From: Candidatus Obscuribacter phosphatis
GTDB taxonomy: Bacteria > Cyanobacteriota > Vampirovibrionia > Obscuribacterales > Obscuribacteraceae
Direction of reading: 5' to 3'
Assembly (NCBI GenBank): GCA_001899315.1
Contig: MOYA01000001.1
Coordinates: forward strand, 1,836,599-1,900,598
DNA: 64,000 nt
Shown here: positions 51,711 through 56,611 of the stretch, in pieces
Layout: every line of letters starts with the position of its first letter
Position numbering within the stretch: position 1 is the first letter of the stretch
Made by a program: the position numbers and the translations under genes
The notes under the pieces: generated by a model
Seen by the model: the letters and a program-made list of their open reading frames with translations, nothing else
Told to the model about the DNA's origin: nothing
Databases searched by the model: none

Positions 51711-51766
51711 TCAATGGACCAGAGGCTTCTAAGCGCTCAAAAATTCAAGGCTTACGGGTGATTGAA

Positions 51767-51790
51767 AAGATTAAACCGATATCGGTCAAA
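51767..51790 (+). repeat. Palindromic 24-bp element, copy 1
   Basis: The 24-bp string from 51767 matches 54811-54834 in 22 positions in direct orientation. It contains the perfect palindrome ACCGATATCGGT (51775-51786), and the flanks GATTAAACC and GGTTTTTAATC (to 51801) add an outer inverted repeat. It lies in the gap between xer and the transposase-derived gene, 77 bp before the latter's ATG. An operator or a recombinase binding site is possible. Confidence 0.5.
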
Positions 51791-51866
51791 GGTTTTTAAT
51801 CGCAAACTTTTGAACTTTTTCTCGCCAAATTACGTCTTCTTATTAGAGGGACGTGAGGCTTGAAAA

Positions 51867-53195
51867 ATGAAGGAAAAGAAAATCAACGAGCAAGCTGCAA
51901 TAAATAACAGGTTTGCAGACAAGGAAGACAGAGCTAGATTTCGAAGAATCTGGTTGGAATTTAAAGCGAAATTCCCAAATGATAAAGCTTGCTGGAATGA
52001 CCTGGTCAATCAGCTACAAAAGGACGATCTGCTTTACTGTAGAAACTGCTATGGGACAGACCTAAAGTTTGCTATATCCAAAAGAAAATACAGCTGCCCT
52101 CTATGTAAGATAGACGGAAGCATAACGTCCAATACTTTCTTTTCGAGAGTGCGCAAACTATGGGCTTGGTATGCAGCAATTTGGCTCGCAGATCACAGCA
52201 TTATTATAAATTCCTGCTTGCTTGCAGACATCACCGGTATTGCCAGTTCCTCCGCTCAACATATAAATAAGAGCATTATGTGCGTGCTTGCCGAAACACG
52301 AACGAGTAAAACTTGTGAGGTTTCGTCAATTCACTTCTTCGATATAATTAGAAAAAGAAGCATACTAACTTCAAAGCTCTGCAAGCCAATCGCGGAAGAA
52401 ATCGAAATCTACGACAAGAGGAAAGCTAAAGAAGAGAAAACCTCTAATTCAAATAAAGCAGAAATGCAAGACAGCAATACACAGAGCAACGACATCAAAA
52501 ACTCTGGCGCCAACTGCCAGGAACCCGTCTCAAAGAAAAACGCAGCGAAAAGTCGTGGTACTAGTAAGAGAGAGGCTGCTTCGGAAAAAGATAAGAAGAC
52601 TATCCACGGCGAACAGCTATCTCCGGATGAGCGCCTTATTCTCAACCTGCTCAAGAGAAAAGATATGTCTATCGAAGATCTTCTCAAGAAAACGAGATGG
52701 GATATTTCTCGTCTCAACGTCGCGCTCTCCCTTCTGGAGCTTCTTGGAAGAATCAAGATATTGGCTGGCGGCAACGTGTCGATGATGAGCAGTCAGACTC
52801 TGTTTAATGAGACTTGCGCGAATAAAAATCAAGATGAACGAAGAGACTGTAAGCTTTCTAGTTTCTTCCATGCAAACAAGTTTCACAGCTGCCTGATTGA
52901 AAAATGCGCTGGAAGAACTTCAGAGGCGCGAGCTAAAAGTTTGATCGCGCATGTAGCAAGCTTCAAAGTCGGCATCAAACGCATTTTTGGAGGAGTAAGT
53001 CGCAAGTATCTTCAACTTTATCTCTCTTTGATAAAGTGCGAGACCATTCTACAAAGTGAAAGGGGGCGGAGCGAAGACAACACCTTACTTAAGTTGTGCC
53101 TGGAGAGGAGCTATGTTGGCTCAAAACACATAAAGACTGTCAATAGCCCTGAGTTGTTATCTGCGGCTTTCTCAAAGCCACAAAAAGCAGCCTAG
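51867..53195 (+). CDS. Transposase-derived protein: IS1595-like zinc ribbon and ends, core replaced by DprA-like winged helix
   Basis: Residues 25-145 parallel the N-terminus of IS1595/ISXO2-family transposases: a zinc ribbon with Cys58-Cys61 and Cys77-Cys80 (YCRNC, CPLC), then SITSNTFFSRVRKLWAWYAAIWLAD-type helix and a helix-turn-helix. Where those transposases have V-E-V-D-E, this one reads CEVSS (150-154), so the first catalytic Asp is gone and no DDE core follows. Instead there is a charged Ser/Lys/Asn linker (about 190-250), a winged helix (about 251-308: SPDERLILNLLKRK...ALSLLELLGRIK) like the DprA C-terminal domain, and a C-terminal segment (about 355-390: FGGVSRKYLQLYL) like the transposase end. 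ATG with GAGG upstream. It is probably a domesticated DNA-binding protein; the domain parallels are by eye. Confidence 0.65.
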   Translation: MKEKKINEQAAINNRFADKEDRARFRRIWLEFKAKFPNDKACWNDLVNQLQKDDLLYCRNCYGTDLKFAISKRKYSCPLCKIDGSITSNTFFSRVRKLWAWYAAIWLADHSIIINSCLLADITGIASSSAQHINKSIMCVLAETRTSKTCEVSSIHFFDIIRKRSILTSKLCKPIAEEIEIYDKRKAKEEKTSNSNKAEMQDSNTQSNDIKNSGANCQEPVSKKNAAKSRGTSKREAASEKDKKTIHGEQLSPDERLILNLLKRKDMSIEDLLKKTRWDISRLNVALSLLELLGRIKILAGGNVSMMSSQTLFNETCANKNQDERRDCKLSSFFHANKFHSCLIEKCAGRTSEARAKSLIAHVASFKVGIKRIFGGVSRKYLQLYLSLIKCETILQSERGRSEDNTLLKLCLERSYVGSKHIKTVNSPELLSAAFSKPQKAA

Positions 53196-53336: not shown

Positions 53337-55010
53337 TCATGCTTCTTGAATGATAAGCAAAGCAAAGTTGGAATCAGCAGCACGTTTATCTAGTTCCAGT
53401 TCAGTTAGAGCGCGAATCAATTGATCAAGCGAAACATCCTTTGCCTCAGTCAAATCATGGGATGGAAGCTTCGACTGACAAAGAGCAAGAGGTTCCTTGC
53501 CAGTCTTGAGAAAATACAAAGTAGCCCCCAATGAATAGAGATCGCTTTGAGGATTGGCTCGCCCCTTAAACTGCTCTGGCGCCATGTAATTGTGTTTACC
53601 CACAACGGTTCTAGTCGCACCAGACTCCATTTCACGAGCAACATTGAAGTCTATCAATTTGATTTCATCTTCGCCGTAATACATCAAATTATCGGGACTG
53701 ATATCCCGATGCACCAACGGTGGTGACAAACCATGCAAATAGGAAAGTAGCTTCAATACTTTACTGGCAATCGAAATGACTGAAGCAGAACTTAGCGGTC
53801 CATTTCTCTCAACAAGACGCTTTAGAGACTCACCCTTAACCATCTCTAGAACCAGATAAGCTCTATGGTCCTCGACAAAGTTGCTCAAGAGTTTGACAAT
53901 CATTGGGTGATCAAGTGATGACAACAACTCAGCCTCTCTCTTGACCGCCGAGAAAGATCTCTGCCTTACTTCCATTCCAGCATTTACTGGAAGCACGAAC
54001 TCTTTGAGAATCACGGGTCCGGTCGGACATAGAGCCTCATAGATTTTTGCTTGACCACCCGTTGCGACTCTTCCAACTATCTCATACTCACCCTGATTCA
54101 AAAGCGTTCCAGCCGGGAGTTCCTCCTCGCGGCTGCGCTTCAAGGAATTCATGTTATCAAGCCAGAATTTCGTATAAGAAGCCACTCCATTGCGAGCGAT
54201 TATTGTTTGAAAGCTAGTATCTTTGCACTGTTCAGGTAAAAGAACGTCTAAGGTCGCGATGAATCTCTCTCTATCAGACTCCAAAGTGAAGGAATCAAGT
54301 GGAATATCAAACTCTACGAAGGAAGACCGGAGAAGACTAAAGAGGTGAAAATTTCTGCCCATAGACAATCCCTTCAAATCCATGGCAAGATTGATGCGCT
54401 GCACAAAGTTTGATTCTTTTAGGTCATAGCGGAGTCTGAGGTTTCCACCGCGCATTAGTTCAGTGGAGGAATCTCCATAGCTGACCACAGTTGGACCATT
54501 AGCTGTGGTCGGACTCAGTCTGCCTCTCTTGATGGGAACCACTACATTCTCTGAAAGCAAATCGCCCTTCGATAGAAATTGAACCAATTGAAACCCTGAC
54601 CAAAGGAACAACTTCGAATCACGCGAAGTTTCAAATCGCCATGAGAACTTTAGTCCATTTTCAAGAGCTACTATATTGGTAGGAAAATCGTAAGCTGTGC
54701 CCTGCTGCCGAAGTTCCCAAAGAAACCAGGACAGTGCAACTAGAACGCAGAGCGAAGCAAAAGAGGCGAAGGCGGTTTGAGAAAAATATGCCATCGCGAA
54801 ACTCGAAATCAAGATTAAACCGATAACGGTTAAACCTAGAGAAAGAGCTGCAAACGCAAGCCTGATTGGGACCCTAGGCTTAATCCCCAATGCTCTCTGC
54901 TTCTCGCCCAGCACCCACTTACTCACCACAAAGTCTTGTTTACTTGGAATCTGTAAATTTTCGGATTTATCTTCAAATCCTTCAAAATGTGTTGTCAAAT
55001 CAGGTCTCAA
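53337..55010 (-). CDS. Membrane Ser/Thr protein kinase with DFN motif
   Basis: Two membrane segments near the N-terminus (about 48-70 and 78-95), a sensor-like region of about 200 residues, then a C-terminal Hanks-type kinase domain (about 307-550). Seen: VAIK-type Lys336 (VILKEF), catalytic loop HRDISPDN (His434-Asp436), and DFN at 454-456 in place of DFG, followed by VGKHNYMAPEQF. The Gly-to-Asn change after the magnesium-binding Asp is unusual but need not abolish activity. TTG start behind GGGG. The sister kinase with regular DFG lies 89 nt upstream on the same strand. Confidence 0.88.
   Translation of the reverse strand: MRPDLTTHFEGFEDKSENLQIPSKQDFVVSKWVLGEKQRALGIKPRVPIRLAFAALSLGLTVIGLILISSFAMAYFSQTAFASFASLCVLVALSWFLWELRQQGTAYDFPTNIVALENGLKFSWRFETSRDSKLFLWSGFQLVQFLSKGDLLSENVVVPIKRGRLSPTTANGPTVVSYGDSSTELMRGGNLRLRYDLKESNFVQRINLAMDLKGLSMGRNFHLFSLLRSSFVEFDIPLDSFTLESDRERFIATLDVLLPEQCKDTSFQTIIARNGVASYTKFWLDNMNSLKRSREEELPAGTLLNQGEYEIVGRVATGGQAKIYEALCPTGPVILKEFVLPVNAGMEVRQRSFSAVKREAELLSSLDHPMIVKLLSNFVEDHRAYLVLEMVKGESLKRLVERNGPLSSASVISIASKVLKLLSYLHGLSPPLVHRDISPDNLMYYGEDEIKLIDFNVAREMESGATRTVVGKHNYMAPEQFKGRANPQSDLYSLGATLYFLKTGKEPLALCQSKLPSHDLTEAKDVSLDQLIRALTELELDKRAADSNFALLIIQEA
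54811..54834 (+). repeat. Palindromic 24-bp element, copy 2
   Basis: Matches 51767-51790 in 22 of 24 positions, same orientation, but here it lies inside the membrane-segment coding region of the DFN kinase. The shared part is AAGATTAAACCGATA, then CGGT and AAA. It may be chance helped by hydrophobic codons, or one of a pair of sites flanking a 3-kb segment. Confidence 0.4.
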
Positions 55011-55099: not shown

Positions 55100-56611
55100 T
55101 TAGAGTCCTCCGTTTGGCAACGCACTCAATGCTAAAGCCAGTTCTTCAGCTGATGGTCGAGACTCAGGTTCAATACTTGTCATCGCCGCAATCAAATTGT
55201 CAAACTCGTCCGAAATTAGTTGTTTATCTACCTCAGATACCCGACTAGTTGAAATTGGCTCTGGATCTTTTCCGGTAAGCAAGTAAAAGAGAGTTCCGCC
55301 AGAAGCAAAGATATCGCTCTTCAGACAAGCTCGCCCCTGGAACTGCTCGGGCGGAATATAGCACTGTTTGCCAATGAGTGTACCAGTCAGATTGCCGACA
55401 AACTCATTGGCGGCCCCAAAGTCGACAAGCGTTATCTTACGGTCATTCTCTCTGATTATTATGTTATCCGGAGTAATATCGCGGTGCACTACTGGTGGTG
55501 TAAATCCGTGCAGGTAAATCAAGACGGAAGCGAGCTGTTCTGCTATCTCCAAAACTTCGCTTTGGTTGAACGGCCCCTTAAGTTTGACATGCTGCCTGAG
55601 AGACAATCCGGCGACGAACTCCAAAAGCAGGTAGTGCCTACCCCTCTCCACAAAATGATCTTGAACCTGAACAATGCCAGGGTGGCTTAGTTTGGCAAGT
55701 AAGCTAGCCTCTCTAGAGAACAGTTCTTGAAGTTTCTGCGCATCTTCGTCGGCATCCGTATCTAACTGCACCGCGAGTTCCTTCAAGACTAAGCGCTTCC
55801 CATCACCATCACGCACCAAATAAACCGATGACATTCCACCACAATTGAGAAGCATCAAGACTGTAAGTTCGCCGCCTCTGATTGACTGACCAGACAATAA
55901 AGGCACAAAATTTGTCACTTCGAAGCGCTCAGCCAGGCTGTCTTCCCACATCTGGGTGTAACTCAAATTGCTTTTCACTTCCCCCCCAGTCAAAATATCT
56001 CGCTGCAGGGCAATCACATCAGCATTAAGACTGATCGGATCGGCATAACGAGAAAGAATGAGAAAGAGTTTCTCTATGTTTGCAGAATCAAAGCCAGCAA
56101 GTGGGAAGGCGACCATACCGCCTGATTTGAAGTCGAAAACAATAAAACCCTGCCTGAACCATCCTTGACCCAGAAAGGTCAATAGACGTTCTTGCCAAGT
56201 TACAGGGGACAAGCGCTTTTGTCCCGAAAATAGACGCTCCATGAGCCGATTGTTAGCGACCCCGCGTAAACGAACCGAATGAAGATCTGACCAGGGGCGA
56301 ACGGAGCGCATATAGAGCATGTCGTTATGCAATTGATTGGCAGACTTTATACCTTTAGAGCTAAAGTCCAATTCTAGACGCAGCGAAGCCGCCACAACTA
56401 AAGGAATGAAAACAAGAGTACTGAAAAAGCTCAGCAACGAGAATTGTCCACAGAACATAAGATTCGAGAGCACAGACAATGTCACAAGAATGAATAAGAT
56501 GATAAAGAACTGCGAAAGCGGCAGTAAGCGACAAGAAACACGTCCATTCGCCCCATCAAGCGCCTTGGATAGGGAAGGCTTTGAGTTCGAAAGACCGACC
56601 AGTTCTGTCAT
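55100..56611 (-). CDS. Membrane Ser/Thr protein kinase
   Basis: Same architecture as the downstream kinase: two N-terminal membrane segments (about 32-75, LSQFFIILFILVTLSVLSNLM then LSFFSTLVFIPLVVAAS), a spacer domain, and a C-terminal kinase domain (about 248-500). Seen: Gly loop LLNCGGMSSVYLV, Lys277 (LVLKEL), catalytic loop HRDITPDN (His376-Asp378), regular DFG at 397-399 and IGKQCYIPPEQF. The two kinases clearly arose by duplication and have diverged. The ATG follows GGAAGGAAAG. A divergent hydrolase gene starts 113 nt away. Confidence 0.9.
   Translation of the reverse strand: MTELVGLSNSKPSLSKALDGANGRVSCRLLPLSQFFIILFILVTLSVLSNLMFCGQFSLLSFFSTLVFIPLVVAASLRLELDFSSKGIKSANQLHNDMLYMRSVRPWSDLHSVRLRGVANNRLMERLFSGQKRLSPVTWQERLLTFLGQGWFRQGFIVFDFKSGGMVAFPLAGFDSANIEKLFLILSRYADPISLNADVIALQRDILTGGEVKSNLSYTQMWEDSLAERFEVTNFVPLLSGQSIRGGELTVLMLLNCGGMSSVYLVRDGDGKRLVLKELAVQLDTDADEDAQKLQELFSREASLLAKLSHPGIVQVQDHFVERGRHYLLLEFVAGLSLRQHVKLKGPFNQSEVLEIAEQLASVLIYLHGFTPPVVHRDITPDNIIIRENDRKITLVDFGAANEFVGNLTGTLIGKQCYIPPEQFQGRACLKSDIFASGGTLFYLLTGKDPEPISTSRVSEVDKQLISDEFDNLIAAMTSIEPESRPSAEELALALSALPNGGL

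Follow-up and report, generated by a model that had tools for sequence, protein, structure and literature searches.

The 442-residue protein encoded at positions 51867 to 53195 (+) of the window, the 64,000-nucleotide stretch of Candidatus Obscuribacter phosphatis DNA analysed here, probably descends from an IS1595-type transposase and is catalytically dead: to judge from its sequence, the DDE domain has been lost and a DprA-type winged helix acquired. The same degree of confidence extends jointly to the whole of the explanation favored below, in which the protein is one of a set of competence-induced transposase derivatives, each of which would bind a cognate palindrome for purposes of autoregulation and of local DNA bridging or marking. 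What the first-pass annotation of this DNA described is borne out but proves to be more extensive: the open reading frame, confirmed here, had been presented there as a single domesticated gene.

The protein displays a modular organization. Residues 28-144 (51948..52298, +) contain an IS1595-type zinc ribbon (C58-x2-C61...C77-x2-C80) and a helix-turn-helix; cysteines 58, 61, 77 and 80 are conserved in the family alignment and the AF2 pLDDT of the region is mostly >90. A profile of 33 family members was compared to five IS1595 transposases using hhalign. Residues 28-144 were matched with a probability of 99.5% (E 3.2e-22), the C-terminal part alone gave a weak match (E 1.6e-4, probability 50%) and the middle part of the profile gave no match to these five proteins. 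The C-terminal match corresponds to the GVSRKYLQLYL tail (residues 360-400; 52944..53066, +), a remnant of the IS1595 C-terminal helices, and a relative, L029, matches NF033547 (E 1.9e-4). The descent of both ends from IS1595, as originally proposed, is thereby upheld, weakly in the case of the tail. At the position of the IS1595 VEVDE the protein reads CEVSS (residues 150-154), which together with the family motif F-x6-R-S-x2-T-x5-P-x2-E takes the place, over residues 150-177 (52314..52397, +), of the start of the DDE domain; F157, R164, S165, P174 and E177 are near-invariant across the family. No DDE domain was found in the protein by Pfam and PF12762, the IS1595 DDE domain, is absent genome-wide, in agreement with the earlier statement that the catalytic core is gone.

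The gap is filled, as had also been noticed, by a DprA-type winged helix at residues 249-302 (52611..52772, +), identified by Pfam as DprA_WH PF17782 (E 4.5e-9) and modelled with a pLDDT mostly >80. It is preceded by a charged linker (residues 206-248; 52482..52610, +) predicted to be disordered (pLDDT <50), so that the AF2 model consists of confident N-terminal and winged-helix modules with a disordered linker between them. The PF17782 winged helix is present in 44 of the 45 family members. In the 442-residue protein it is the only DprA-domain match obtained with Pfam, the Rossmann domain PF02481 not being found, and a genuine DprA is encoded separately in the same genome. In 33 of 45 members the winged helix is nearer to the DprA of its own bacterial family than to DprA from elsewhere (mean identity 35% vs 29%), and this comparison of a 50-residue domain makes it likely that the domain was derived from the lineage's own dprA. 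The protein belongs neither to IS1595, as it is devoid of the catalytic domain and of mobility, nor to DprA, as it is devoid of the Rossmann domain. A mobile-element reading was rejected: the IS1595 DDE domain is missing from the genome, convincing terminal inverted repeats were not found (the best candidate is a 14-nt, 86% pair at 51738/53294, and none had been visible at first reading either), no phage or plasmid copies of the family were found, and synteny is retained. None of the PADLOC anti-phage defence models matches this chimera family. Two neighbouring Ser/Thr-kinase-like genes are located downstream (window 53337-55010 and 55100-56611, -), with conserved synteny in the sister species.

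The assembly comprises 8 contigs, at 95% completeness and an estimated contamination of 4.5%. The genome contains 19 divergent chimera loci, mostly displaying 25-40% mutual identity, and the expectation of a single-copy gene is therefore abandoned. The result that would have spoken against a domesticated gene, a multi-copy transposase with catalytic residues, was not observed: the family is multi-copy, yet without the catalytic domain. Each of the 19 loci has a 1:1 orthologue in the genome of a sister species (G002), the genes being full-length and 65-80% identical. Neighbours are conserved between both genomes where compared and the window gene is syntenic there, in support of the vertical inheritance that had been anticipated. 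The family proteins evolve fast, with a median identity between species of 73.6% vs 90.6% for 45 neighbouring proteins, and no presence/absence polymorphism of the loci was seen. No recurrent partner gene was found, as the neighbours of 20 family loci are unrelated to each other apart from TPR and signalling proteins. Adjacency to a Xer recombinase, to which the first-pass annotation had attached importance, is retained by the direct orthologue only and the link is not considered meaningful.

The family is known from metagenome-assembled genomes, and relatives are present in 15 of the 24 genomes of the bacterial family, own genome counted. A match in G012 was rejected as a family member, being a true IS1595 transposase, and the sole match outside the bacterial family was likewise discarded, since it comes from a true DprA and is limited to the winged helix. 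In a scan of 84,980 species, 34 loci were confirmed, in records titled Obscuribacterales, Obscuribacter, Melainabacteria, Cyanobacteria or unnamed bacteria; on the sequences searched, the chimera family is confined to Obscuribacterales. Because the members of this genus form one clade in the tree (100/99), the phylogeny indicates expansion within genera followed by retention. As a separate observation, an IS1595 transposase of G012 (L060) scored 186.7 bits against the family profile, far above other IS1595 proteins, its sequence having been part of the alignment from which the profile was made.

The window gene is preceded by a conserved motif, TTGAACTTTTT-N12-CGTCTT (51810..51838, +), of the general form GAAC-N17-CGT, which we take to be the shape of an ECF-sigma promoter. 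An exact search of the genome for TTGAACTTTTT-N12-CGT gave 46 sites and its reversed control gave none, and the motif precedes every family gene tested in the own and sister genomes. The gene of an ECF sigma factor (L117, C1:3074717-3075358; orthologues L246-L264) is itself preceded by the motif, and GAAC-N17-CGT is located 42-65 nt upstream in 20/20 orthologues across the bacterial family. Because all 20 sigma orthologues carry it, the ECF sigma factor and the promoter are, on the strength of sequence conservation, paired through conserved autoregulation, and L117 is put forward as a candidate competence regulator. The exact motif is also located before comEC, the comM/YifB ATPase gene, radC and dnaE, to which dprA, comFC and yraN are added by a relaxed motif. 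The motif of comEC recurs in the sister species and also in as many as four further genera (start positions approximate). Outside this genus dprA is mostly without the promoter, so that its membership of the regulon is not general. The genes sharing the promoter constitute a putative competence regulon, a label taken from their gene content, and the chimera family appears from its promoters to be co-induced with DNA-uptake (competence) genes.

The same promoter is carried by Spy/LTXXQ-like, DUF1800 and hydrolase genes (L106, L114, L110, L118). It is also carried by a second multicopy family of about 14 members (L105, L107, L111, L112, L116, L120, L121, L123, L126-L129, L132, L133), which displays an AbiEi-like N-terminal winged helix (PADLOC AbiEi, 1.4e-8) and no recognisable toxin domain. 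Several members of this AbiEi-like family are accompanied by palindromes of another core, AAGAAATT..CG..AATTTCTT, some upstream and some downstream of the promoter.

In most members of the chimera family a palindrome is located upstream of the promoter. Its core reads ACCGAT followed by ATCGGT (or ACCGTT by AACGGT, or ACCGAA by TTCGGT), its arms are gene-specific, and the longest perfect example reaches 62 bp. The palindrome of the window gene, ACCGATATCGGT at 51775..51786, is centred 31 bp upstream of the promoter GAAC and found at the same place in the orthologue; it is short, being perfect over 12 bp and 78% palindromic over a wider extent. Of 67 regions upstream of family genes, 70% contain a palindrome scoring at least 7; the corresponding figures are 3.1% for shuffled sequences and 2.6% for 78 neighbouring genes. 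A clear palindrome is missing at three or four of the 19 loci (L038, L045 and L047, with a weak one in L043), and many are located between divergent genes (L039, L040, L041, L042, L049, L050, L054). Between orthologues the arms are 91.9% identical, vs 80% for the spacer and 64% further upstream. Arm similarity tracks protein similarity (Mantel r 0.33, 0/2000 permutations), and the flanks just outside the palindrome do not (Mantel r -0.01). Palindrome centres are spaced from their promoters with a period of about 11 bp (family-wise p 0.008, jitter null; a post hoc observation, made once the data had been seen), which is what would be expected of a protein that works from a single face of the helix.

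The exact 12-mer ACCGATATCGGT is present in 78 copies in the own genome (control 0) and 77 in the sister genome, in 0-2 copies in eight same-family genomes without relatives, and in none of 16 genomes outside the family. Across 40 genomes, the number of cores goes with the presence of the family, apart from a few genomes that have members but few copies (G001 with 3 copies, G013 with 1 and G019 with 0). At four places, four or five ACCGATATCGGT palindromes are lined up in tandem at a spacing of 40-57 bp (L066, C1:478761-478993; L082, C1:2873774-2874000; C3:741654-741774; C2:680591-680771), three of them intergenic and one in a predicted ORF.

Copies outside the promoters, hereafter satellites, cluster by the family genes: 17/35 are located within 25 kb, vs 7.1 expected. 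In a second genus, g6 (G007), 11/27 copies lie within that distance of family genes vs 1.3 expected (p 1.4e-8), promoter sites being included in that count. The list of satellites was compiled using a score-or-core rule, core-less palindromes being subsequently dropped by eye, and the satellite at C4:135185 was counted with L040, L041 being the closer of the two. With the core excluded, satellite arms match those of the nearby family gene (0/20,000 permutations, p<5e-5), with a better match to another gene in 10/33 satellites. The palindrome TTTGTAAGCTTATCGAT of L052 is repeated at +19 kb, the unusual core ACCGAATTCGGT of L039 at -22.5 kb and the palindrome of L048 at -16.5 kb. The window gene has satellites at +22 and +25 kb, beyond the window edge; within the window, a candidate satellite at a single site (ACCGATAACGGT, 54819..54830), 3 kb downstream within the kinase gene on the opposite strand, has the 14-nt half-site AAGATTAAACCGAT in common with the palindrome of the window gene. 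No satellites were found within 30 kb of L053 and L043. An apparent concentration of satellites at 16-25 kb was not accepted, as the numbers do not distinguish it from an even distribution over about 28 kb.

The sister species has the satellites of L042, L048, L050, L039 and the window gene at corresponding distances; in several of them the two arms differ between species in a concerted, compensatory manner. The arm of the L048 satellite reads TTAGACC here and GTAGACC in the sister species; that of the window-gene satellite at +24.7 kb reads AAAAAGAC and AAAGGAC, respectively. Of the 34 satellites placed, ORFs contain 18; the others lie between genes, which are convergent in 10 cases, tandem in 4 and divergent in 2. 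None of the 34 has an ECF promoter beside it. Some of those in convergent gaps resemble intrinsic terminators and may also terminate transcription, a double role also played by the uptake sequences of Neisseria.

The explanation favored here can be summarized as follows. The family set would be transcribed, on the basis of the conserved promoter motifs, by the autoregulated ECF sigma factor together with the natural-transformation genes. Each paralogue, as a dimer, would bind its own cognate palindrome, the common protein parts reading the shared core ACCGAT and the variable parts reading the gene-specific arms. Autoregulation would be exerted from the site in front of the paralogue's own promoter, placed on a preferred helix face, and the satellites within about 25 kb, mostly non-promoter, would permit looping, bridging or marking of the surrounding DNA during competence. 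The chimera would perhaps also deliver DprA-like contacts to recombination proteins. Dimerisation and the mode of DNA binding are guesses, because a Foldseek search of the PDB with the AF2 model gave no good match to the fold as a whole (none below E 0.03). The domestication into a sequence-specific DNA-binding or bridging protein, suggested at first reading, fits the cognate palindromes that such proteins would bind; as the history of a single gene it gives way to that of a family of about 19 loci. An extended version of the explanation is decidedly unlikely. It would make of the family a local address system for transformation, in which a paralogue made only in competent cells would recognise its private palindrome, be it on DNA entering the cell or on DNA already resident there, and the DprA-type winged helix would steer protection, pairing or recombination of about 50 kb, kin DNA being sorted to its own neighbourhood.

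Ordinary autoregulated transcription factors, each binding no more than the palindrome at its own promoter and a small number of local targets, would account for the palindromes upstream of promoters in an approximately 11-bp register, for a winged helix resembling that of MarR/PadR-type regulators and for the proximity of sites, as regulators often act close to their own gene. The satellites would then be local regulatory or decoy sites, structurally unremarkable. However, 28/34 satellites are located in ORFs or convergent gaps, none near an ECF promoter, and no recurrent neighbour or target gene is observed, which makes this reading somewhat unlikely. The regulon itself could alternatively be a general DNA-damage or envelope response in which the com genes are minor, the family serving repair or chromosome organisation and not transformation. 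The presence of the promoter on dnaE, radC and the Spy/LTXXQ-like, DUF1800 and hydrolase genes is in line with such a response, but comEC, comM, dprA, comFC and yraN are jointly hard to explain otherwise than by competence and comEC carries the promoter in other genera too; we regard this alternative as rather doubtful.

Two further readings concern the palindromes and the loci as such. That the palindromes are bidirectional intrinsic terminators, sharing loop and core by chance and unrelated to the family proteins, is suggested by several satellites in convergent gaps with A/T-run flanks (C1:1913127) or in a tandem gap (C1:1040572), and compensatory changes would equally preserve an RNA hairpin. 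Nevertheless, many family palindromes are between divergent genes where no terminator is needed, 18/34 satellites are inside ORFs, several palindromes are without T-runs (C1:1345943 and 1386845, for example), the arms match those of the closest family gene and vary with the sequence of its protein, and the number of cores goes with family presence; the terminator reading is accordingly given very little credence. Selfish units spread by transformation, in which gene and palindromes bias uptake or integration of the carrier DNA as a competence-borne drive, would be compatible with a competence-type promoter, a DprA winged helix, private gene-linked sites, fast evolution and repeated expansion within genera. 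This scenario is improbable, given that 19/19 loci are kept 1:1 between sister species with conserved neighbours where compared, that phage or plasmid copies were not found and that presence/absence polymorphism was not seen.

Comparison to known systems is informative for each component. The family shares with IS1595/ISXO2 transposases (PF12760, PF12762, NF033547) a zinc ribbon, an HTH and C-terminal helices in the same order, and differs from them by the lack of a DDE domain and of element ends, by stable orthologous loci and by a winged helix in mid-protein. With DprA (PF02481 + PF17782) it shares the winged helix, C-terminal in DprA and most like that of same-bacterial-family DprA, and apparently, in this genus, the regulon; unlike DprA, it has no Rossmann DNA-processing domain. 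The DNA uptake sequences of Neisseria and Pasteurellaceae are transformation-linked words over-represented in genes and in terminator-like convergent gaps, in thousands of copies. The words described here are also over-represented in genes and convergent gaps, but in tens of copies and as gene-specific variants clustered by neighbourhood. The 13-bp matS site of MatP is present in 23 copies in 800 kb (PMC3330122). MatP/matS and other macrodomain proteins resemble the present system in that a dedicated DNA-binding protein (presumed such in the case of the chimeras) is associated with palindromes scattered through one chromosomal region; here many paralogues exist, each with private arms, a neighbourhood of about 50 kb, a promoter site and a competence-type promoter. 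No sequence relation to MatP/matS was found and the likeness is one of layout only. In the case of the ComX and sigma-H competence sigma factors, an alternative sigma factor drives the com genes (PMC3364868, and as generally known). The candidate described here, assigned to com genes by promoter motif, differs in belonging to the ECF family, in being autoregulated and in having two large DNA-binding families in its regulon. A literature search returned no described system with these features, and to our knowledge none combines them.

Here a transposase, reworked to include a piece of DprA, has given rise to a multigene set of proteins that apparently bind DNA at private sites and that are linked by their promoter to DNA-uptake genes. 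The gene-specific palindromes, retained between species (in several cases with compensatory changes) and clustered around their own gene, suggest individual sequence addresses for chromosome neighbourhoods. The paired protein and arm sequences constitute a natural dataset for a DNA-recognition code, and a candidate regulator, the autoregulated ECF sigma factor, is proposed together with its regulon for transformation in Obscuribacterales.
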